Source: Variovorax paradoxus (GTDB lineage: Bacteria; Pseudomonadota; Gammaproteobacteria; Burkholderiales; Burkholderiaceae_C). Taken from it: a DNA stretch of 64,000 nt. Made by a program: the position numbers and the translations under genes. The notes under the pieces are model-generated. The model made no database searches, was not told the origin of the DNA, and was given only the letters and a program-made list of their open reading frames with translations. How positions within the stretch are numbered: the stretch's first letter is position 1; each line of letters opens with the position of its first letter. Where the stretch lies: NCBI RefSeq assembly GCF_009498455.1, contig NZ_CP045644.1, positions 3,661,001 to 3,725,000 on the forward strand, written 5' to 3'. This document shows positions 34,722 through 56,096 of this stretch, in pieces.

Positions 34722-36383
34722 ATGAACTTGAGTCTGGGAACCGCGGCCTTCTTCACTGCGCTGTTGGAAGCTGTCCTTGCCGCCGGCATGTGGGCGTTGT
34801 GGGCGAGGGGACGAGCCCGCTATCTCATTCATTGGGGCTTTGGATTCTTCGTCTTCGGAGTCGGTGCTTTGCTCCTCACTTTGCGGGGGCGAATCCCGGA
34901 TTTTCTATCCATCCTCGTCGGGAATCTCTGCTTAACACTGAGCTCAATCCTGCTGTACGTAGGTATCTGCGTGTTCTTCGACCGACGCCGGTCGTGGTTG
35001 CCGTGGATGGTGGGAGTGTTGAGCTCGGAGGTCGCACTGCTGGCGTACTACTCCTACGGTTCATATGACACCTCGGCACGCGTGTACGTGTATAGCGTGG
35101 CCCAAACGCTGATCGCCCTGATGATGCTTCAGACACTGTTCGCAGTGAATCGTGGACGAGGAGAGCGCTTCAAGCCGGAAGTCGCCGCTGTGGCTTTGGT
35201 GGCATTGGCGGCACTGGTGGCTCACAGCGCACGCTTGGTCGGCACGCCTTTTTTCCCTGTGCCGCAAGATTTTCTGGCTTCAGGGGATTTCCAGGTCTTG
35301 TTTGCCTTCGGTCTTCAGTTGATTCACGTCGGGTATGCCATTGCGTTCGGCAACATGCACGCGTCCGCGTTGCATGAAGAACTGCGAACGGCACTCGCGG
35401 ACGCCGAAGCAAAGGACCGACAGAAAGTTGAAATCCTGGGCTACGTCAGCCACGACTTGCGCGCACCGCTTGCGACGATCAGCGGATACTCCTCGCTCTT
35501 GCTCGCCAACGCGAACCAAGGGCAACGCAAGCATCTGCTAGCCATCCAGCGCGGCGTCAAATATCAACTCAACCTGATCGACGAACTGCTGGAATATGCC
35601 AAGGCCGAACTGCAACCTTTGGCTATTCAACCGCTCACTACCGACCTGCCGCTTCTGCTGGACAACATCTCCGAATACGGAGTCGCCCTGTGTTCGCAAC
35701 AGAACAACGGCTTTCGCTATCAGCCCTCAACTCGAATTCCCCAACGGATCAACATCGACGGAAAACGCTTGCAGCAGGTGCTGTTGAATCTGTTGTCCAA
35801 CGCCGCCAAGTTCACGCGCGATGGTCTGGTGACTCTCTCTGTCACGGCCCGGAAAGAGGGGGCAACCTGTACCTTGAATTTCGCTGTCAGTGACACAGGC
35901 ATTGGCGTCGACCTGAACCAGAATGCCGACATTTTTTCCGCGTTCCAGCAGGTACAAGCCGCAAGTGGCAGCAGCGGGCTGGGCCTGTTCATCGTGCGGC
36001 GCATTGTCGAGGCCATGGGTGGGTCCCTGAGCGTGACCAGTGTCTACGGCCAAGGTGCCACGTTTTCTTTCGTACTCTCTGCGCCGACCGATGAAGCTGA
36101 CGCAGATTGGGTCGTCGTCGAGCAGCGGGAGATGGAACCCGCTGGGTCTTCATCGATGCCCGCGATGCCCCGAAATCTCATGCCGGAGGATCGAGCTCTG
36201 GACGAGCTCGCAGGCCTGGCGCTCCAGGGACGCTTCACCGATATTGAGCATTGGGTTGCGCACCATGCCGATCAAGTCGCCCATGCTGCGTTCATTGCCC
36301 GGCTTCTTGACTTGCTGGAGCAGTTGGACTTCCGCGGGATTCACGGGTTGGCGCTGAGTGGCAGAAGTGATCCGAATACATGA
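34722..36383 (+). CDS. Orphan sensor histidine kinase with 7TM input and C-terminal helical module
   Basis: 553 residues. Seven membrane helices span about 5-215 with no large periplasmic domain. HisKA has GYVSHDLRAPLATISGY with phospho-acceptor His244. HATPase motifs are NLLSNAAKFTRDGLVTL, VSDTGIGVD and SSGLGLFIVRRIVEAMGG. The last 60 residues (DELAGLALQGRFTDIEHWV, LLEQLDFRGI) match the end of the kinase at 18614-20947. No response regulator is adjacent. Its base composition is lower in GC than the secretion operon upstream, suggesting acquisition or a distinct ancestry. Confidence 0.92.
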   Translation: MNLSLGTAAFFTALLEAVLAAGMWALWARGRARYLIHWGFGFFVFGVGALLLTLRGRIPDFLSILVGNLCLTLSSILLYVGICVFFDRRRSWLPWMVGVLSSEVALLAYYSYGSYDTSARVYVYSVAQTLIALMMLQTLFAVNRGRGERFKPEVAAVALVALAALVAHSARLVGTPFFPVPQDFLASGDFQVLFAFGLQLIHVGYAIAFGNMHASALHEELRTALADAEAKDRQKVEILGYVSHDLRAPLATISGYSSLLLANANQGQRKHLLAIQRGVKYQLNLIDELLEYAKAELQPLAIQPLTTDLPLLLDNISEYGVALCSQQNNGFRYQPSTRIPQRINIDGKRLQQVLLNLLSNAAKFTRDGLVTLSVTARKEGATCTLNFAVSDTGIGVDLNQNADIFSAFQQVQAASGSSGLGLFIVRRIVEAMGGSLSVTSVYGQGATFSFVLSAPTDEADADWVVVEQREMEPAGSSSMPAMPRNLMPEDRALDELAGLALQGRFTDIEHWVAHHADQVAHAAFIARLLDLLEQLDFRGIHGLALSGRSDPNT

Positions 36384-37136: not shown

Positions 37137-37476
37137 GGGCGCTGTTGCTCGCCGCTGTGTCTTTGTGGCCGGCGGCGGCTCACTTTCCCATCTCCTTCAG
37201 CGTAGCAAGGGCCGGGTGTCGCCCGCTCCTCGATCGAGGTTTGATCGTTTTGCAGCGATAGCTGCCAATCGTCTCGGCTAATCCAATAGGAGCTATCAGC
37301 CCCAAAGAGACATTCGCCGGATAGTGCAATGTAATCAATGTAAGCGTCTGATACAGTGGCGCGCATGGGCTAGGCCTAGATCGGGAAGCGCTGTTGTTCA
37401 TGGCAGCTTGCCGGCCGAAAAAACTAAATCGTAGTCCCATTGAATTCCAAGAAATACGAACGAGGAGGACAAGAAA
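37137..37476. other. Qat upstream region
   Basis: 340 bp, AT-richer toward the right. It contains a dyad GATAGCT...AGCTATC (37257-37263 and 37291-37297, 27-base loop) and a weak -10-like GATACAGT (37350-37357). The qatA ribosome site GAGGAGGA is at 37462-37469. The Qat promoter most likely lies here. Confidence 0.45.
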
Positions 37477-39363
37477 ATGTGGCATGACATCGAGGCAAAG
37501 GTTGATCTACTCAACTTCGGATTGGTCGCGAATGCAGCGACAAATCTGATCAAGGATGCCGGCGATATGCCGGTCACCATTGGAATATCCGGTGGATGGG
37601 GCGCCGGCAAATCGACTCTTGTGAAGCTTGTTCAGGCCCAATTGGAACAAAGCACAAAAAAGGACGACGAAAACTCCCCATACATCCTCATGGAGTTCAA
37701 CGCGTGGTTGTATCAGGGCTACGAAGATGCTCGCCAAGCGCTACTCCAAGCAGTCTCAGACCGACTTGTCGAAGAAGCAACGAAGCGGAAAACGTTCGTC
37801 GACAAGGCGATGGACTTTGCCAAGCGCGTCAAGCTACTCAAGGTAGGTCGAATCGCCGCACCGGTGGTTGCGCATGTTGCTGTCGGCACGCTCGGAGCGG
37901 GCCCCCTTGGAGCCCTGTTCGGCGCAGTCAGTGGCCTTGTACAGGGATTCGCCGATGAAAACAGGCGCGCGGAAAGCCTAAAGGCAGTCCAAGAGGCCTA
38001 CGCAGAGCTCTCGCCCGAACTCAAAGAAGTGATTGGAGAAAAGAAGGACGCGTCTTTGCCCAAGGAAATTGAGGGGCTGCGCCAGGCATTTGCCGACCTC
38101 TTGGAAAAGCTCAATGTCCGCTTGGTCGTCTTTGTCGACGATCTCGATCGATGCCTCCCTACAACGGCTATCGGCACGCTGGAGGCCATGCGGCTGTTGC
38201 TGCATGTCCCACGGACCGCCTTTCTGATTGCCGCCGACGAAAGCATGATTCGTGGCGCGGTTCGGGCTCACTTCAAAGGCGTGGAGATCGAAGAAGGGCT
38301 TGTCACTAGCTACTTCGATAAGCTCATCCAGATTCCGTTGCGCGTCCCGCGCCTTGGTATTAGTGAGGTCAAGGCATATCTCGCGCTCCTGCTGACTGAC
38401 CTCGCTGTGCGCAAAGGGAAGCTTTCAAGGGAGGCTCAGTCAGCTGGACAGGCAGAGGTTCTTAAGCTGCTAAAGAAGTCGTGGTCAAAGGGCATTTCAC
38501 GCGAGCTTCTTGATCAGGCGTTCAAACCTGAAGAGGCAGCGGTAGCCAAGGAATTGGATATCGCCGATCAGCTAGCGCCTCTGCTCGTGACATCCGCCGA
38601 AATTGCCGGCAATCCACGTCTCATCAAGCGATTTTTGAACAACATCATGATTCGGCTGACCATCGCCGAAGAAATGGAGATGCCGCTTGCCCTGGAGGCG
38701 CTGGTCAAGGTTCAGCTGTTCGAACGTTGCGCATCGAGTGCTGCATTCGAATTTCTGACCAAATCGGTGGCCGAAAATCCAGACGGCAACGCAGAGTTTC
38801 TAAACGCAGTGGAGGACGCCGCGCAAAAAGCCGAGAAGTACGAGCCGCCACACCCATCGTGGACCGGCCCCTTCTACGAGCAGTGGCTCAAGCTCGCTCC
38901 GCGTCTGGCAGGCAAAAATCTACAGCCAATCTTGCATCTCAGCCGCGACCGCAGCTTGGGTTTGGCTGCCTACGACGAACTATCTGCTCAAGCCAAGAAG
39001 GTGTTGGAAGCAATCATGGAGGCGACTGAACGGTCCGCATTGCTTGTCAATCAGCTCAAAGCCCTCGGTGAAGGAGATGTTTCTCGAATACTCAATCGTG
39101 CGATTCGAAAAGGTCGCGAGAACCAGTGGGAGTTTGAGGACATCGTGCGATGCCTTCATTGCACCGAATCTCATCCGGCGATGGGACTTCAGCTAGCACC
39201 GGCGCTCTACGAGGTCCCAGGCAACAAGCGCAGTGTGGCGCTCATTCCCCTGCTCAAATCGCTTCCGTGGGCAGCTGCTCTGTTGCGAGACTGGGAAGAC
39301 GATCCAGAGACGGACGAGAAGGCGCGCAAGTACCTGCAAAAACAAAAGAAAGAGGTCAAATAA
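37477..39363 (+). CDS. qatA: Qat anti-phage system QatA, KAP family P-loop ATPase
   Basis: 628 residues. Walker A GGWGAGKST is at 39-47 with Lys45; Walker B VFVDDLDRC is at 218-226, with the KAP pattern of two Asp and a following DRC. A hydrophobic Ala/Gly-rich insertion (about 125-160) lies between them, as in KAP ATPases, and may touch membrane. In the Qat defence system the ATPase is joined with QatB, a QueC-like and a TatD-like protein to block phage. It heads a four-gene operon with 1-, 4- and 4-base overlaps. The strong GAGGAGGA site decides the start. Confidence 0.93.
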   Translation: MWHDIEAKVDLLNFGLVANAATNLIKDAGDMPVTIGISGGWGAGKSTLVKLVQAQLEQSTKKDDENSPYILMEFNAWLYQGYEDARQALLQAVSDRLVEEATKRKTFVDKAMDFAKRVKLLKVGRIAAPVVAHVAVGTLGAGPLGALFGAVSGLVQGFADENRRAESLKAVQEAYAELSPELKEVIGEKKDASLPKEIEGLRQAFADLLEKLNVRLVVFVDDLDRCLPTTAIGTLEAMRLLLHVPRTAFLIAADESMIRGAVRAHFKGVEIEEGLVTSYFDKLIQIPLRVPRLGISEVKAYLALLLTDLAVRKGKLSREAQSAGQAEVLKLLKKSWSKGISRELLDQAFKPEEAAVAKELDIADQLAPLLVTSAEIAGNPRLIKRFLNNIMIRLTIAEEMEMPLALEALVKVQLFERCASSAAFEFLTKSVAENPDGNAEFLNAVEDAAQKAEKYEPPHPSWTGPFYEQWLKLAPRLAGKNLQPILHLSRDRSLGLAAYDELSAQAKKVLEAIMEATERSALLVNQLKALGEGDVSRILNRAIRKGRENQWEFEDIVRCLHCTESHPAMGLQLAPALYEVPGNKRSVALIPLLKSLPWAAALLRDWEDDPETDEKARKYLQKQKKEVK

Positions 39364-40190
39364 TGGGGACCTCCACATCCAGTTTGGGGCCGGGCAGTGG
39401 CGTGAGCTTGGACCCGCCCTGGTTAGACGACGTTGTCGGCGGAATTGGTGGGAGCGGCACTGTCGCGCCAATTGACGTGAACCCTCCGGTCCCTCCTGCC
39501 GCTCCAACAGGCAGTGCCCCTCCAAATCGATACGGCGATGCCCGCCGTGAGTTCGGGAAGTTCGCCAAGACCGGGAACACGCAACACCTTCGAAGTGCAG
39601 TCGGTCACTATTCCCGTCGAGGTAGTGGAGGTGCAGGCGCCGCGGCCAGCCGCATGCGCGCTTCCACTAGTGCCGGTTCCGCATTGTTCTCGTTCCTCAA
39701 CGCCGTCAGCCAAGGAACAACAGCCGAAGCCCGCAAATGGGTCGAAGACCTGCGCGAAACCAACCCGTCGGCAGAAGACGTAGTGGACGCCATCGTTCGA
39801 GAGCTGGCGCCCCCTGGCGGAAGCGCGGACGAAGATTCGCTCCGCGACGCGATGGATCACGCCTTGTCCGAACTCATCAAGGACGACCCCGCCATCGACC
39901 CCTTGAGCATGGAGGTCAACGACATCTGGGAACTGATGAAGGGCTACCTAGCAATCGAGGCAGGCAACCGGCTTTGCTTCGACCTCGGCCCAATCTTCGA
40001 AAGCTCGCAGCTTGACCCGCGAACAGCTGTTCTCCGGGAAAAGGAGATGCGACGCTTCCTCAGAAACGAAATTGGGGCACATGTAGAACTGCTGCGGGGC
40101 ACCATTGCCAATCCATCGCGCACCCAGCTAGACGGCATCCTGCAAGAGGCACTGAAGATGACCTTTGAGCTGTTTGAGGCAGAGCTATGA
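39363..40190 (+). CDS. qatB: Qat anti-phage system QatB
   Basis: 275 residues, start overlapping the qatA stop (TAATG). The N-terminal 60 residues are low-complexity Gly/Pro/Ser (LGPGSGVSLDPPW, PPVPPAAPTG). The rest is helical, with no catalytic motif recognised (REFGKFAKTGNTQHLRSAVG, MRRFLRNEIGAHVELLRG). Identification as QatB rests mainly on its place between the KAP ATPase and the QueC-like gene and on its size; sequence motifs alone would not name it. It is required in the described system, mechanism unknown. Confidence 0.85.
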   Translation: MGTSTSSLGPGSGVSLDPPWLDDVVGGIGGSGTVAPIDVNPPVPPAAPTGSAPPNRYGDARREFGKFAKTGNTQHLRSAVGHYSRRGSGGAGAAASRMRASTSAGSALFSFLNAVSQGTTAEARKWVEDLRETNPSAEDVVDAIVRELAPPGGSADEDSLRDAMDHALSELIKDDPAIDPLSMEVNDIWELMKGYLAIEAGNRLCFDLGPIFESSQLDPRTAVLREKEMRRFLRNEIGAHVELLRGTIANPSRTQLDGILQEALKMTFELFEAEL

Positions 40191-41473
40191 CAAAGATTTT
40201 CTGTGCGCCCAAGGACCAGATTCCGGAAGCCCGTCACGCTGATACCACATACTTTTCGATGTATGCGCACGACGGACTGCCCGACGTGAGCACTGTAGGA
40301 ACATCGCTCATTGATGAGGTCAAGAAGGCCGGGCTGGTGCCTAGCGCAGCAAGTTGGGACTTCTTAACCCTAGCATTAGCGGTCAACGCTGCCGATCATG
40401 CAGTGGAGCGCAGTCTTTCGGCCGACGGCTGGACGAGAACCATCGAGCTGGAAGTGGCTCTCTATGAGCCCGCCCCCTTCGGGAGGTTGACTATTGAGAT
40501 CGAACAGGCGCTGCGGTTCTTGACGGGCGACTTCTGGCGCTTGCGTTTCGTCGAAGGCGGATATCCGCCGCCGATTTCGAAACACCCCGTGGCTTATGAC
40601 GCGGACTGCGTATCGCTCCTGTCGGGCGGGCTTGATAGCCTGATTGGAGCACTGGACCTGACCGCTCAACGTCGGCGCCCCATTTTCGTCTCGCACATCG
40701 CCAAGGGTGACTCGGAGACGCAAGTCTTGTACGCAAAAACATTCGGTGGCGGTGAACGCCACCTGCAATGGAATCAAAATATTTGGTTGAAACCACAGCG
40801 CGAAGGCGAGGGCTCGACACGTGGTCGGTCTATTGTCTTCTTCGCTTTCGCAGCGCTTGCTGCCGACAGTCACGCACGCGCGTCCGAGGCCAGCTCCGTT
40901 GAGGTCTTCGTTCCAGAGAACGGGCTCATCAGCCTCAATGTGCCCTTGACCGTTGGCCGAGTTGGGAGCTTGAGTACCAAGACCACACACCCAGTTTTCA
41001 TGCAGCGGCTTCAAACCCTGTGGGCTAGCCTAGGGATTCCCGCGACCTTGCGACTCCCATACGCTGCAAAGACCAAGGGAGAGATGATGGCTGACTGTCT
41101 CGACCCAGACAGACTGAAAGGCTTGGCCGGGATGTCAACAAGCTGTGGCCGCTTTAGCGTATACGGATTGCGGCACTGTGGTCGGTGTGTGCCCTGCATG
41201 GTTCGCCGATCAGCCTTTCTGCGGTCCCGAATCTCAGATACCACTGCGGTGTATGTCTATCCCGATTTGAAGGCTGCACAGCCCGACAAGGGGGCGAACG
41301 ACGTTGCAGCAGTGGCCACTGCTGTGGTGAAAGTCGAGGACGAAGGCGTTCGCGCCTTCACCGCAGGGCAGTTCGTCTTCGCGGAGTCGTCTCACCGCGC
41401 AGTCTTCGAAGGGGTCGTTGAGCGAGGACTGCAAGAATTAGGGGTCTTGCTGCGTTCTCACCATGTCCTGTGA
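40187..41473 (+). CDS. qatC: Qat anti-phage system QatC, QueC-like protein
   Basis: 428 residues, ATGA overlap with qatB. The PP-loop ATPase motif SGGLDS is at 146-151. A zinc-binding set C320-x10-C331-x2-C334-x2-C337 follows, as in QueC (7-cyano-7-deazaguanine synthase). It is about twice the length of QueC, with an added N-terminal domain (1-140) and a long tail. In Qat it presumably uses ATP to modify a nitrile- or amide-type target rather than make queuosine; no other queuosine genes are near. Confidence 0.93.
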   Translation: MTKIFCAPKDQIPEARHADTTYFSMYAHDGLPDVSTVGTSLIDEVKKAGLVPSAASWDFLTLALAVNAADHAVERSLSADGWTRTIELEVALYEPAPFGRLTIEIEQALRFLTGDFWRLRFVEGGYPPPISKHPVAYDADCVSLLSGGLDSLIGALDLTAQRRRPIFVSHIAKGDSETQVLYAKTFGGGERHLQWNQNIWLKPQREGEGSTRGRSIVFFAFAALAADSHARASEASSVEVFVPENGLISLNVPLTVGRVGSLSTKTTHPVFMQRLQTLWASLGIPATLRLPYAAKTKGEMMADCLDPDRLKGLAGMSTSCGRFSVYGLRHCGRCVPCMVRRSAFLRSRISDTTAVYVYPDLKAAQPDKGANDVAAVATAVVKVEDEGVRAFTAGQFVFAESSHRAVFEGVVERGLQELGVLLRSHHVL

Positions 41474-42204
41474 TTGACTTCCATTCCCATCTTGACCTGT
41501 ATCCCGAAGGCTTGGCACTCGCACGCGAGGTCAATCGCAGAAACGACTTCACCCTCGTCGTGACAACCAGTCCACGGGCGTACTACGCCACCTCGCGGGT
41601 GTTCCGGGGGCTGGAGAATATCCACGTCGGACTCGGTCTTCATCCCGAGGTCGCCGAGGCCAAGGCTGCGGAGTTGGATGCGCTAGTCGCTGGGATCAAA
41701 GGGGCTCGGTTCGTTGGTGAGGTCGGCCTCGATGGATCGCCCAGATTTCGCAAGTCCCTCGAACTCCAGGAGCGCATCTTTCGTGCGGTGCTCGGGGAAT
41801 GCCGCCAGCAAGGCGGGAGAATCATCAGCATTCACTCGCGCGGTGCAGCACAGCGGACCATCGAAGCCCTGGCTACCGCCAGGGATGTAGGCGTTCCGGT
41901 GCTGCACTGGTTCTCTGGAGGGGTCACCGAACTTCGGACGGCATCCCGACTGGGCTGTTGGTTCAGCGTCGGGCCGGCCATGCTCGTAGGTGAAAAGGGC
42001 CGCAGCCTGTTGAGTCACATGCCGGTTGACCATGTTCTACCCGAGACTGATGGCCCTTTCACCACTGAACGAGGTGTTGCTCTGAAGCCGTGGGACGCTT
42101 GGGAGGTTTGCTCGACGCTGTCAGAGATCTGGGCTATGCCTCGCGAAGCCGTCGAGAAGCAGCTACAAAACAATCTCCGGCGGCTACTCTCTAGCCAGCC
42201 TTAA
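41470..42204 (+). CDS. qatD: Qat anti-phage system QatD, TatD-like DNase
   Basis: 244 residues from GTG 41470, overlapping qatC by 4 bases. The TatD metal ligands are all present: H5-S-H7, Glu84 (GEVGLDG), His122 (SIHSRG), His146 (LHWFSGG) and Asp194 (ETDGPF). The fold is a metal-dependent nuclease TIM barrel. It closes the operon and probably supplies DNA cleavage in the defence response. Confidence 0.94.
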   Translation: MIDFHSHLDLYPEGLALAREVNRRNDFTLVVTTSPRAYYATSRVFRGLENIHVGLGLHPEVAEAKAAELDALVAGIKGARFVGEVGLDGSPRFRKSLELQERIFRAVLGECRQQGGRIISIHSRGAAQRTIEALATARDVGVPVLHWFSGGVTELRTASRLGCWFSVGPAMLVGEKGRSLLSHMPVDHVLPETDGPFTTERGVALKPWDAWEVCSTLSEIWAMPREAVEKQLQNNLRRLLSSQP

Positions 42205-42257
42205 CTGGCTGCCGTAAGACGCTCCGTTCACAATTTTTTCCGCTGCGGCCTGTCCAT

Positions 42258-42434
42258 GTCGAATGGCGGCTCAACGACCTGACGCTCCAATTCAAGGACG
42301 GCCTCCACATCATGATCGGCCCGAACAATGGAGGAAAGACTGCGGATGACTGGCTTGGGAAGCCGCGGTCGTTCGGGCATCAAACTCAAGCGACCAGTGC
42401 CCGTCTGACGCGGCCACATACGCGCTGCCGGTAG
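42258..42434 (+). pseudogene. Remnant of an OLD/RecF-type AAA ATPase
   Basis: One frame reads WRLNDLTLQFKDGLHIMIGP followed by NNGGKT, the exact pattern of the first strand and Walker A loop of OLD-like and RecF-like ATPases (DGLxxLIGPNNxGKT). After the Lys-Thr the frame continues for about 30 unrelated codons to TAG 42432. There is no start with ribosome site before it, so only some 28 codons of the original gene remain. OLD-type ATPases occur in Gabija, Septu and retron defence systems, so this is probably the stub of a second defence gene beside Qat. Confidence 0.6.
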
Positions 42435-42500
42435 CAGCACTTGAGGGACGAGGGCTCCGAAATCAACGTTTTCCAGCGATGGATTCCCGGCACTCGCGCT

Positions 42501-52924: not shown

Positions 52925-53067
52925 GTTGCAGGCGATTGCCTCGTTGTAATGGCGCCGTCCGCATCGCGACGGCGTTGCATTTCTAGTGTGTCGGCATGGC
53001 GGTCATCAAGACACCGCCATCGCCGATGAGGGTGTTCTTCTTCGGCGCCATTCGAAGGAGATGACAC

Positions 53068-53454
53068 ATGAAGAACAGCAAGATGGCTTTCATGCTGGCG
53101 GCCGTGGCCGCAGCGACGGTTCCGCTCGTGGCCGGTGCGCAACCGGCTGCGTCGCGCAGCCCGCAGCACGTCGAGGCCGGCGCGCATTTCGCGGCGAACG
53201 AAGCGGGCATCAAGGAACACCCTGAAAACGCCGGACCGGGCAAGACGGATGCCGAAGTGGTGGCCGAACTGCGCGCCGCGCAACAAAGCCCCGAGTGGGC
53301 CGGCGTGCTGCGCTGGGGCGCACCGATTCCCGTGAAGGCCTCGCAGCCGCGCACGCGGGCGGAGGTGGCGGCGGAGCTGGAGCGCGCGCAGTCGCAACCG
53401 GGCTGGGAGCGCGCCTCGCGGTTGGGGGCGCCGGTGGTGGTGCCTGCACGGTAA
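53068..53454 (+). CDS. DUF4148-type secreted protein with internal duplication
   Basis: 128 residues with a signal peptide (cut near LVAGAQ). Ribosome site GAAGGAG lies seven to thirteen bases before the ATG. Two similar segments follow one another: TDAEVVAELRAAQQSPEWAG (about 60-79) and TRAEVAAELERAQSQPGWER (about 95-114), each continuing to a GAP sequence. The motif RAEVxAEL is that of DUF4148 periplasmic proteins, abundant in Burkholderiales. Function unknown. Confidence 0.8.
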   Translation: MKNSKMAFMLAAVAAATVPLVAGAQPAASRSPQHVEAGAHFAANEAGIKEHPENAGPGKTDAEVVAELRAAQQSPEWAGVLRWGAPIPVKASQPRTRAEVAAELERAQSQPGWERASRLGAPVVVPAR

Positions 53455-53701
53455 GGGCGCTGGGACTTGCGAGATATTTCAGGCCCCTCTGTTGCTCTTC
53501 TTAGGTGCGACCAAAGAATCTGGCGCTTTGCACGTTGGGCAATGATCGAAGAGCGCCGGATTCAAAGGGGACTTCGCTATTAGCTCCGGAATCGCGGCTC
53601 AAGCGATTGCAAAAGAGTTGGGAAGCGCCCTTCCTTCTACGAAGGCGCATGCACTCATACTCGGGCTGAATCCAGTGGTCACCTCAAATATCAGAACCAA
53701 C

Positions 53702-54907
53702 ATGCGCCGCCGAGTACTTCTCTTTTCAGGTGGGGCCGCGATCATGCATCCCATGATTTCGCTGGCGGAGGACGAAGATCCGTGGGGGCGTGCGTCTGGC
53801 TATCCGACAGGCTGGGGGACGCCTCGCGGCCTCTCCCGCGATAAGCGGATGCGCGTAGGAAATTTTTCCGGCGGTTTTGAGGCGATGCTGCCAAGTCGCA
53901 CGATTCAGTGCGGGCAGGAAGACCCGCTGCAAGATAGACCCCGAAGCGACCTGCGCTATCACTTCAATGGCGTTTCGAAGACGCCTGACGACTATATGGC
54001 GACGTCACCGGTGACGGGCTTGCTGATCGCGCGACGCGGAGAAGTCTGGTGGGAAAAGTACCAGTTTGGTCGTACGCCCGAAATGCGCATGATGGGTTGG
54101 TCCATGTCGAAGAGTGTTACGTCTCTTCTTTTAGGCATCGCAATTGATCAGAAACTGATTGCCTCACTGGAGGACAAAGCGTCTCTCTACGTGCCGTGGC
54201 TGGCGGGAACGCTTCACGGCGAGGTCAGCCTCCGCAACCTGATGAACATGTCGAGCGGCGCTGAGATTGTTCACGATCAAGCCAACAACACGATTTATCC
54301 AGCCGCGCTTACCGGTCCGCGTGCAGATATCAAACCGACAGTGCGCGATTGGAATGTGCGACGGGAGGTCGAAGGCAGTCGATTCAACTACAACGAGCTA
54401 TGCCCACTGACTATTGGGATGGTTCTGAGAGCTGCCACTCGCATGAGCTTGTCAGAGTACGCCGAGCAGTTCCTCTGGAGACCGATGGGTGCTGAGGCCA
54501 ATGCGACATGGCTGACGGATCGTCATCGCAATGAGTTCAACTGTATTGGGTTTGCCGCGACCCTCCGTGACTGGAGTCGCCTAGGTCGGTTAGTCGCACA
54601 GGGCGGCCAAATGAACGGTAAGCAAATCGTCAGCCGAGAATGGATGGAGAGCTATGGCCGCTGGGAGTCAAACGAAGCACAGGTTCGCTACGGCGCCCTG
54701 GGCACACCGTTTCCTGCTGCTTACAAGGCATTCATCTGGCACACAAAGTCTGATGGAACCAGGCCACTCTTCAGTGGCGCAGAAGGGCAACGCGTGCTCA
54801 TCGATGTTCCTACTCAGACAGTGCTGGCCCAGACGGGCATCGATGGCACTGGCGATTGGCAGCGAGAGATCTATGCACTTTTCCAAGCCGCCGTCACCGC
54901 GAGATAG
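53702..54907 (+). CDS. Serine hydrolase, beta-lactamase class C / NylB-like
   Basis: 401 residues from ATG 53702, which begins a signal-like RRRVLLFSGGAAIMHPMISLA; an ATG at 53618 adds unlikely sequence. The SxxK motif is S134-M-S-K137, and the later FNYNELCPLTIGMVLRAATR and FAATLRDWSRLGRLVAQGGQ match 6-aminohexanoate-dimer-hydrolase-type esterases and amidases. Probably periplasmic; substrate unknown. GC content is visibly below that of both neighbours and the upstream 247 bp are also AT-richer, suggesting transfer. Confidence 0.88.
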   Translation: MRRRVLLFSGGAAIMHPMISLAEDEDPWGRASGYPTGWGTPRGLSRDKRMRVGNFSGGFEAMLPSRTIQCGQEDPLQDRPRSDLRYHFNGVSKTPDDYMATSPVTGLLIARRGEVWWEKYQFGRTPEMRMMGWSMSKSVTSLLLGIAIDQKLIASLEDKASLYVPWLAGTLHGEVSLRNLMNMSSGAEIVHDQANNTIYPAALTGPRADIKPTVRDWNVRREVEGSRFNYNELCPLTIGMVLRAATRMSLSEYAEQFLWRPMGAEANATWLTDRHRNEFNCIGFAATLRDWSRLGRLVAQGGQMNGKQIVSREWMESYGRWESNEAQVRYGALGTPFPAAYKAFIWHTKSDGTRPLFSGAEGQRVLIDVPTQTVLAQTGIDGTGDWQREIYALFQAAVTAR

Positions 54908-55010
54908 CCACTTGATTGCCATGCACGGCCAACGAGGCTCCGTGTTTTTCGCTAGCCTCTGCAGAGGCTTGGAGATGAATCGTGCAGCCCGCTCGGCTAC
55001 CTGCAATTTC

Positions 55011-56096
55011 TCAGCCCGCCGCCGCGTGCCGCAACACGTCCGGCTGCGCCATCGCCGGATCCGTCCCCTCGAAGCGCATCTTCGGCAGGAACTGCGGGTA
55101 CTCGCGCTGCATGAAGTCGATGACGCCTTCGCGCACGTTGCAGCGCAGGTCGAAGGCCAGGCCGGAGGTCGCCGCGGTGCAGAGCACGCGGACCTGCATG
55201 GTGCGTTCGGTGGCGTCGGTCACGCGCAGGTTGAAGAAGCGGCCGTCCCACTCGGGCGCGGCCTTCACGATGCGCTCGACCTCGGCGCGCAGCGGTGCCA
55301 GGGGCATGCCGTAGTCCAGGTAGAAGAAGACGGAGCCGAGCAGTTCGGCCGAGTGGCGGGTCCAGTTCTGGAAGGGCTTCTCGATGAAGTAGGTGAGCGG
55401 CAGGATGAGGCGGCGGTCGTCCCAGATGCGCACGACCACGAAGGTGCCGGTGATTTCTTCGACCCGGCCCCATTCGCCTTCGACCACGAGCACGTCGTCG
55501 ATGCGGATCGGCTGCGACAGCGCGATCTGCAGGCCCGCGATGAGGTTGCTGAAGACGGGCTTGGCCGCAAGGCCGGCCACGATGCCGATCACGCCGGCCG
55601 AGGCCAGCAGGCTGGCGCCGACCTGGCGCGCGCCCGGGAAGGTCATGAGCATCATGGCGCCGCCGGCCACCACGACGATCGACATGGCGGTGCGCGCGAG
55701 CACGCGGGTCTGCGTGAGCACGCGGCGCGCCTGCAGGTTGTCGGAGATGTCGGACGGGTGCTGCGCGAGCACGCCGTCGGCAAAGCCGCTGATGGCCTTG
55801 AGCACGAACCAGGTGCTGGCCGCGATGAGCAGCAGCCCCGTGAAATGCCGCACGCTGCCCAGATAGCGCAGGTCTTCGGGCGCCGCCTGCCACACCATCA
55901 TGAGTGCCGTCAGCGGCAGCACCAGCCGCGCGGGGGCGGTGCAGTTGACCACCATCGCATGCACGGCGGGGGCGGGGCGGGTGATCCGCCGCAGGACCAT
56001 GCCACCGATGCGGTGGGCGAGAAGGGCGAGGGGAACGGCGATCAGGGCGGCAATCCAGGTGCCGAACCAGGGGTGTGCAAGGAACTCTTGGGTCAT
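55011..56096 (-). CDS. MscS family mechanosensitive ion channel
   Basis: 361 residues. Four membrane helices lead to the pore helix VGASLLASAGVIGIVAGLAA and the beta domain start FSNLIAGLQIALSQPIRIDD, then VEEITGTFVVVRIWDDRRLI and the C-terminal alpha/beta vestibule. It opens under membrane tension to release solutes. The start overlaps the FUSC stop (TGATG), making it the third gene of the suhB-FUSC-mscS operon. Confidence 0.95.
   Translation of the reverse strand: MTQEFLAHPWFGTWIAALIAVPLALLAHRIGGMVLRRITRPAPAVHAMVVNCTAPARLVLPLTALMMVWQAAPEDLRYLGSVRHFTGLLLIAASTWFVLKAISGFADGVLAQHPSDISDNLQARRVLTQTRVLARTAMSIVVVAGGAMMLMTFPGARQVGASLLASAGVIGIVAGLAAKPVFSNLIAGLQIALSQPIRIDDVLVVEGEWGRVEEITGTFVVVRIWDDRRLILPLTYFIEKPFQNWTRHSAELLGSVFFYLDYGMPLAPLRAEVERIVKAAPEWDGRFFNLRVTDATERTMQVRVLCTAATSGLAFDLRCNVREGVIDFMQREYPQFLPKMRFEGTDPAMAQPDVLRHAAAG

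Follow-up and report, generated by a model that had tools for sequence, protein, structure and literature searches.

What does QatC, the QueC-like enzyme of the Qat anti-phage system, attach to its partner protein QatB? The question is raised by a four-gene operon—qatA-qatB-qatC-qatD, on the forward strand at positions 37477-42204—in a 64,000-nucleotide stretch of the Variovorax paradoxus genome (contig NZ_CP045644.1, positions 3,661,001 to 3,725,000; hereafter called "the window", in whose numbering positions are given). The operon is an apparently intact new copy, in Variovorax, of the already known four-gene Qat system, and it is ordinary as such; its value lies in a comparison of Qat hosts that speaks against the substrate currently proposed for QatC, namely 7-carboxy-7-deazaguanine (CDG). 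In the available parts of a 2026 study of the Pseudomonas aeruginosa system (PMC13279940, Gao, Wassarman and Kranzusch), the QatC reaction could not be reconstituted, and the attached group is called an open question. We read the operon as a complete chromosomal Qat anti-phage system with QatB and QatC as its core and with a donor other than CDG, and give this reading a probability of roughly 0.8.

The four genes and their products

The four open reading frames overlap successively by 1, 4, and 4 bases, and each product matches its PADLOC model (E-values of 9.7e-125 for QatA, 3.1e-31 for QatB, 6.2e-98 for QatC, and 9.5e-78 for QatD). QatB, QatC, and QatD also exceed their NCBIfam cut-offs (134.1 bits against 100, 316.5 against 280, and 285.7 against 230, respectively), while Pfam finds KAP_NTPase in QatA (192.5 bits), TatD_DNase in QatD, QueC below its cut-off in QatC, and no match in QatB. 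In tblastn searches of 85 related loci (80 genomic and 5 in IMG/VR contigs, all found through QatC), QatA was matched in 81, QatB in 83, QatC in 85, and QatD in 83, and all four proteins were matched in 79. Since the four models match in the right order and 79 of the 85 related loci match all four proteins, the Qat assignment goes beyond chance.

The examined motifs are present in the three enzymes. QatA carries GGWGAGKS at residue 39 and VVFVDDLDR at residue 217, and its AlphaFold2 model, from an alignment of 63 sequences, has a predicted local distance difference test score (pLDDT) of 86.6. Residues 136-159 are of low confidence in the model and form part of a hydrophobic stretch within the NTPase domain (residues about 124-158), possibly a membrane-touching insert. 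QatC has SGGLDS at residue 146, STKTTHP at residue 263, and the cysteines 320, 331, 334, and 337, which are invariant in an alignment of 18 sequences; the SGGxDS, Thr-x-Thr, HP, and P(x)4TK elements and the zinc cysteines described in PMC13279940 and PMC13329287, as far as the available text of both papers goes, are thus all in place. In QatD, the metal-ligand motifs DFHSHL, GEVGLD, HSR, HWF, and ETDGP lie at residues 3, 83, 122, 146, and 192, and its relatives in the PDB are TatD-like chains, the first at 4.7e-66. The original prediction, made from the DNA letters, had described a KAP ATPase, a QatB-type protein, a QueC-like protein with an intact C4 site, and a TatD-like nuclease with its metal ligands, in Qat order, with the same short overlaps and with the visible catalytic residues intact. 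The coordinates, the motifs, and the PADLOC matches—those of QatA and QatB included—bear it out.

Is this operon a working system? The original prediction held that it should be functional, and the genes suggest as much. The alternative is an inactive remnant that happens to have survived in a defence hot spot. On that side stand the QatA score of 397.4 bits, below the NCBIfam cut-off of 600, the adjoining GajA-like remnant, and the low G+C content relative to the host, which suggests a foreign origin. Phage defence by this operon is predicted from its genes. No promoter-like site was found on the operon strand, a point that, like the QatA score, tells against the reading as a complete system. 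Promoter and terminator scans gave site numbers not above those of shuffled sequence. However, the four frames are open, with tight overlaps and intact motifs, QatA aligns with its profile over residues 1-584 and yields the model described above, and the QatA genes of relatives (76-89% identity) are likewise open frames. We consider a remnant improbable. Nor is there much room for a metabolic cluster in which the QueC-like gene encodes a second queuosine-pathway enzyme. The QueC-like fold family and a weak PF06508 match (17.1 bits, cut-off 22) are compatible with such a role, but the tree contradicts it: 42 QatC rows—the window protein plus 41 loci taken as every other entry of the sorted list—split from 11 QueC or Cap9-like rows with branch support of 100/99, and the window QatC groups with those of Ralstonia and Noviherbaspirillum. 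A grouping with housekeeping queC, named in the original prediction as the outcome that would speak against a Qat assignment, was therefore not borne out. Moreover, the host has its own canonical queC elsewhere in the genome (337675-338346, 228.6 bits), and Escherichia coli QatC did not restore queuosine (PMC13329287, in its available part). We give the metabolic explanation almost no credence.

The QatB tail and the donor of QatC

How would the QatBC core act? We propose the following mechanism. After removal of the start methionine, the QatB tail (Gly2-Thr-Ser ... Pro-Pro-Trp) would enter the QatC active site. QatC would activate a carboxylate donor with ATP and join it to the Gly2 amine, which would make QatB competent for defence. 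QatA, as a ring-forming, DNA-binding KAP ATPase, and QatD, as a TatD-like nuclease, would broaden the range of phages. The reaction is inferred, and the same intact parts are present in the sequence here; from the host distribution described below, the donor would be something more widely available than the CDG of Cap9. According to the available parts of PMC13279940, the P. aeruginosa proteins form a QatBC complex that is sufficient against lambda-vir, and the system needs the QatC ATP site and the Thr pair that replaces the CDG-binding Tyr/Asp, as well as Gly2 and tail residues 16-22 of QatB.

The window QatB starts with MGTSTSSLGPGSGVSLDPPW from position 39363, which contains the MGTS motif and the tail Pro and Trp described in that work. 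The original prediction had called the low-complexity N-terminus of QatB and the role of the protein obscure. The first part no longer holds, as the N-terminus is a conserved MGTS...PPW tail reported in 2026 to be essential; the second part stands, as the action of modified QatB is still left open in the available text of PMC13279940. MGTS occurs at the assigned start or slightly downstream of it in 76 of the 79 QatB matches from the 80 genomic loci, a common form being MGTSxSSxGPGxGV...PxW; the three exceptions (L034, L037, and L076) are broken or lie at contig ends. The start-choosing script gave preference to initiation codons with Gly and a small residue after them, a bias towards MG, not towards MGTS itself. 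Among the five viral-contig loci, four have a QatB match, all with MGTS. The motifs of QatC are similarly widespread: in the 83 longer QatC rows, SGGxDS is found in 83, R.RS, ST.T.HP, and TKG each in 82, HCG.C..C..RR in 64, and PENG.ISLN.P in 36. In two loci, a stretch of about 1.3 kb (L009) or 2 kb (L048) parts the qatB frame from qatC; the L009 qatC matches only from residue 156, and the L048 qatB is cut short.

Do Qat hosts make CDG? They provide an independent test of the leading donor guess, and no such host-distribution test was found in the available parts of PMC13279940 or PMC13329287; "queE" occurs twice in the latter text (in the introduction and for the neighbourhood of canonical QueC) and not at all in the former. 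A search for further literature on the QatC mechanism (Qat, QueC, deazaguanylation) found none, most subscription journals lying outside its coverage. Four profile searches covered 50 genomes from the 80 loci, 16 titled as metagenome-assembled genomes (MAGs) and 34 others. QueC (PF06508) reaches at least 150 bits in 33 of the 50, and no single match exceeds 34.9 bits in the other 17. For QueE we used TIGR04508 and TIGR03365 with a threshold of 28 bits, set after the scores were seen; it is reached in 31 of the 33 QueC genomes, most weakly in G045 (28.3 bits over 42 positions, close to its QueC). Three of the 17 QueC-less genomes also have a QueE match—clear in G044 (70.9 bits), doubtful in G037 (30.0) and G039 (32.8)—and were excluded. 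Neither QueC nor QueE was thus found in 14 of the 50 genomes, and 10 of these 14 are also without PTPS (QueD). Of the 14, eight carry no MAG label in their titles: Lachnoclostridium (L031), Thioalkalivibrio (L047), Agromyces (L048), Agrococcus (L055), Leucobacter (L060), Chelativorans (L062), Serinicoccus (L071, titled as uncultured), and Mycolicibacterium (L077). SGGxDS and ST-x-T-x-HP are conserved in the QatC of every one of the 14 loci, as is the MGTS start of QatB. PTPS alone was discarded as an indicator of CDG synthesis, since it gave no match in 6 of the 33 QueC genomes, five of which are sphingomonad-type; the sphingomonad-type genomes of L053, L057, L065, L072, and L081 have QueC and QueE.

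A draw of 394 Actinomycete genomes (95% completeness requested), centred on G021, extends this set. A QatC-family match at E 1e-20 occurs in 12 of them, three over the curated cut-off with G021 included, and a QueC match (E 1e-15 and at least 60 bits, with at most seven candidates scored per genome) occurs in 14, none of which is among the 12. QueE was found in one of the 12 (G405, 88.5 bits). A QatD match lies beside QatC in 8 of the 12, which adds seven genomes when the already counted G021 is left aside; the four loci with no QatD match (L096-L099) were excluded. The QueC/QueE-less Qat genomes thereby total 21. YhhQ-type transporters carry preQ0-type bases; they were matched (PF02592) in 9 of these 21 genomes and not in the other 12, QueT-type transporters being outside the search.

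Does QatC attach CDG to QatB, as Cap9 attaches it to its CD-NTase, with the CDG-less hosts fed from outside or carrying an idle Qat? Carboxydeazaguanylation is indeed proposed for QatC in PMC13329287, in its available part, and the fold and the Gly-tailed partner are shared with the type IV cyclic-oligonucleotide-based anti-phage signaling system (CBASS), as described in the available text of PMC13279940. The window's genome has a canonical queC—the only gene of the pathway sought there—and the Variovorax of L004 (G002) has QueC, PTPS, and QueE. CDG might also be taken up through the YhhQ-type transporter in the 9 genomes that have one. Several features of the comparison itself count against a different donor. 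The 50 genomes came with no completeness figures, and 6 of the 14 QueC/QueE-less ones are titled MAG. The absence of QueE is judged by two profile models, which missed it in two QueC genomes (G004 and G030), and by one model in the added Actinomycetes, for which PTPS was outside the search; absence from a profile search is not biochemical absence. In five of the seven added Actinomycetes, QatC lies under the NCBIfam cut-off and no QatB profile match was found, and Qat and QueC could not be called anticorrelated in Actinomycetes, as the overlap of 0 compares with about 0.4 expected under independence. Finally, patterns modelled on the window fail in some of the 14 loci (PENG.ISLN.P in 9, HCG.C..C..RR in 2, and at least one of the five QatD patterns in 10), and since the patterns partly fail and the L048 QatB is cut short, some Qat copies may be idle.

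Against CDG, the Tyr/Asp pocket that binds it in Cap9 is Thr/Thr in QatC, and crystals grown from CDG and ATP contained ATP only (both PMC13279940, available part). In addition, no YhhQ-type transporter was seen in 12 of the 21 hosts, and QatC of four QueC/QueE-less hosts (L024, L048, L060, and L062) stands at three places in the tree, with L048 and L060 in an eight-row fork that also includes L052, L070, and L080 from hosts with QueC and QueE (the hosts of the other neighbours were outside the test). We regard CDG as a possible but unlikely donor. Because hosts without recognisable CDG synthesis keep the MGTS tail, the ATP motif, and the Thr pair, and because of the Thr/Thr pocket and the ATP-only crystals, the comparison favours, without proving it, a donor other than CDG. 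If Qat indeed works where CDG is neither made nor imported, the donor must be something else.

A possible QatC and MGTS-tail pair beyond QatABCD

Is the pairing of QatC with an MGTS tail confined to the four-gene system? In 10 of the 12 Actinomycete loci (L088-L094 and L096-L098), the QatC-like gene is immediately preceded, on its own strand, by a gene for a protein of 240-288 residues that starts with MGTS. Seven of these loci (L091-L094 and L096-L098) gave no match to the QatB profile, which had been built from the loci collected before. L095 has MGTC at that place, and L099 has no such protein upstream. The MGTS pattern has chance matches, such as a second one in an unrelated frame of L090. 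Because divergent Actinomycete QatC-like genes—with QatD in L091-L094 and without it in L096-L098—adjoin MGTS-starting proteins missed by the QatB profile, the pair may form a module wider than QatABCD, in which QatC would not deazaguanylate QatB but would join some other widely available carboxylate to its Gly2. We put the odds of this proposal at about even. If true, it would be an N-terminal protein modification new to immunity, judging from the available parts of PMC13279940 and PMC13329287.

Three Actinomycetes (G401, G337, and G062) have a best QueC-like match of 60-102 bits; a YhhQ-like gene adjoins it in G401, and FolE and PTPS genes in G337. Within the genus Variovorax, QatC exceeds its cut-off in 4 of 100 genomes (the genome of the window among them) and is matched at E 1e-20 in 8 of 100. 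No MGTS protein was found in the roughly 4 kb loci around the four weak QatC-like matches (L122-L125, 110-157 bits).

Genomic surroundings and known systems

Table 1. Features of the Qat locus in the window
Feature	Position	Strand	Evidence
Shine-Dalgarno-like AGGAGG stretch ahead of qatA	37462..37469	+	Sequence reading (putative)
qatA, KAP P-loop NTPase, 628 aa	37477..39363	+	PADLOC, Pfam, NCBIfam below cut-off, AlphaFold2 model
qatB, 275 aa (ATG at 39363), QatC partner and probable substrate	39363..40190	+	PADLOC, NCBIfam, PDB chains
N-terminal tail of QatB, MGTSTSSLGPGSGVSLDPPW; Gly2 as proposed acceptor, tail as proposed guide to the QatC active site	39363..39422	+	MGTS conservation; PMC13279940 (available part)
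qatC, QueC-like PP-loop enzyme, 428 aa	40187..41473	+	PADLOC, NCBIfam, PDB QatC, tree
qatD, TatD-like metal-dependent nuclease, 244 aa, GTG start	41470..42204	+	PADLOC, NCBIfam, metal ligand motifs
Putative exchangeable cargo segment containing the operon	37256..42476	.	blastn to L110 and L112; G+C content
GajA N-terminus-like fragment (Gabija; P-loop GPNNGGKT), remnant beside the operon	42267..42344	+	PADLOC GajA

The G+C content is 0.576 in 37258-42464 and about 0.695 on either side. The survey of this neighbourhood covered 8 of the 94 genomes in which the flanking sulfatase gene was matched, with 16-20 kb read next to that gene in each. In two of the eight, the congeners G490 (L110) and G522 (L112), both flanks match by blastn with other, defence-like cargo between them; for the remaining six, the stretch read showed no left flank. 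The G490 cargo (L110:3098-8407) encodes a 1769-residue P-loop protein with weak NACHT, Avs4, and DUF626_VIII similarity, all below curated cut-offs. That of G522 encodes a weakly TIR-like protein and an M78-type peptidase like PD-Lambda-2_B; at L112:7355-9304 it also holds neighbouring thymidylate-synthase-like and aGPT-Pplase3/ADDT genes, which together resemble a DNA-base hypermodification pair. The GajA-like remnant after qatD matches the PADLOC GajA model at 2.1e-5 over 26 residues, with no Pfam match at E 0.01. Because of the same flanks with other cargo in two genomes and the GajA-like remnant, we read the Qat locus as a probable defence hot spot whose cargo can be exchanged.

A search for a phage or plasmid origin gave no support for one, integrases having had no profile search. 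No QatC relatives were found at E 1e-20 in 50,697 phage records, the 48 plasmid records matching QatC at E 1e-40 all have less than 60% identity, and five QatC-related loci lie in IMG/VR contigs. ARAGORN found no tRNA gene in the window. A low-G+C histidine kinase gene near the operon (34722-36383) is present in G490 and missing in G522. A second low-G+C stretch lies at 53000-56000 (about 0.60 at 53001-55000) and includes a beta-lactamase-fold gene (53618-54907).

How does the operon compare with known systems? The nearest solved fold to the QatA model is the heptameric RdrA ring of RADAR (Foldseek E 2.2e-5), no sequence relatives of QatA being found in the PDB at E 0.001. This likeness would fit the heptamer or octamer reported for QatA in the available parts of PMC13279940, but the TM-score is only 0.32, and none of the four proteins matches the RdrB model of PADLOC. 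In type IV CBASS, Cap9 is likewise a QueC-family enzyme with a Gly-tailed protein partner; in contrast, Pfam finds no CD-NTase domain in any of the four window proteins, and QatC differs from Cap9 by the Thr/Thr exchange and by extra N- and C-terminal parts (both as described in the available text of PMC13279940). Another QueC-like enzyme with a Gly-tailed partner is possibly encoded in L132 (1778-4840) and L136 (971-4856), where a Cap9-like QueC gene adjoins a gene for a nucleoside deoxyribosyltransferase-domain protein (in L136 also PfkB) and a small protein starts with MGSSGSGSF or MGGSGGG, respectively; L136 additionally has an Ogg-HhH gene and a YhhQ-like gene. L133 is perhaps a similar locus, with no Gly tail found. 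On plasmid pCP1 (L139) of the laboratory organism Deinococcus radiodurans R1, annotated qatB, qatC, and qatD follow a KAP gene, and genes for a restriction endonuclease and a recombinase adjoin them.

Much closer are the operons of Ralstonia sp. UNC404CL21Col (L003) and Variovorax sp. OK212 (L004), with four genes in the same order and QatC identities of 82 and 79%; they differ in sequence divergence only. The solved QatBC complexes (9zee/9zef and 9vlk/9vll) provide the structural counterpart, 9zee being presumably the P. aeruginosa complex of PMC13279940. The relatives of the window QatC are 9vlk (8.1e-53) and 9zee, both named QatC, and those of QatB are 9vll_A (8.9e-15, named DUF5610 domain-containing protein) and 9zee_A (3.8e-13, QatB). 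The solved QatC chains have 465-466 residues, compared with 428 here, and share 38-39% identity over the displayed alignment stretches, which extend only as far as residue 370-374 of the window protein in the C-terminal extension, the region that in described QatC holds a QatB-binding basic patch. The window operon shares with QatABCD the gene order described in the available parts of PMC13279940, the MGTS tail of QatB (9zee), and the ATP motif, Thr pair, and zinc cysteines of QatC.

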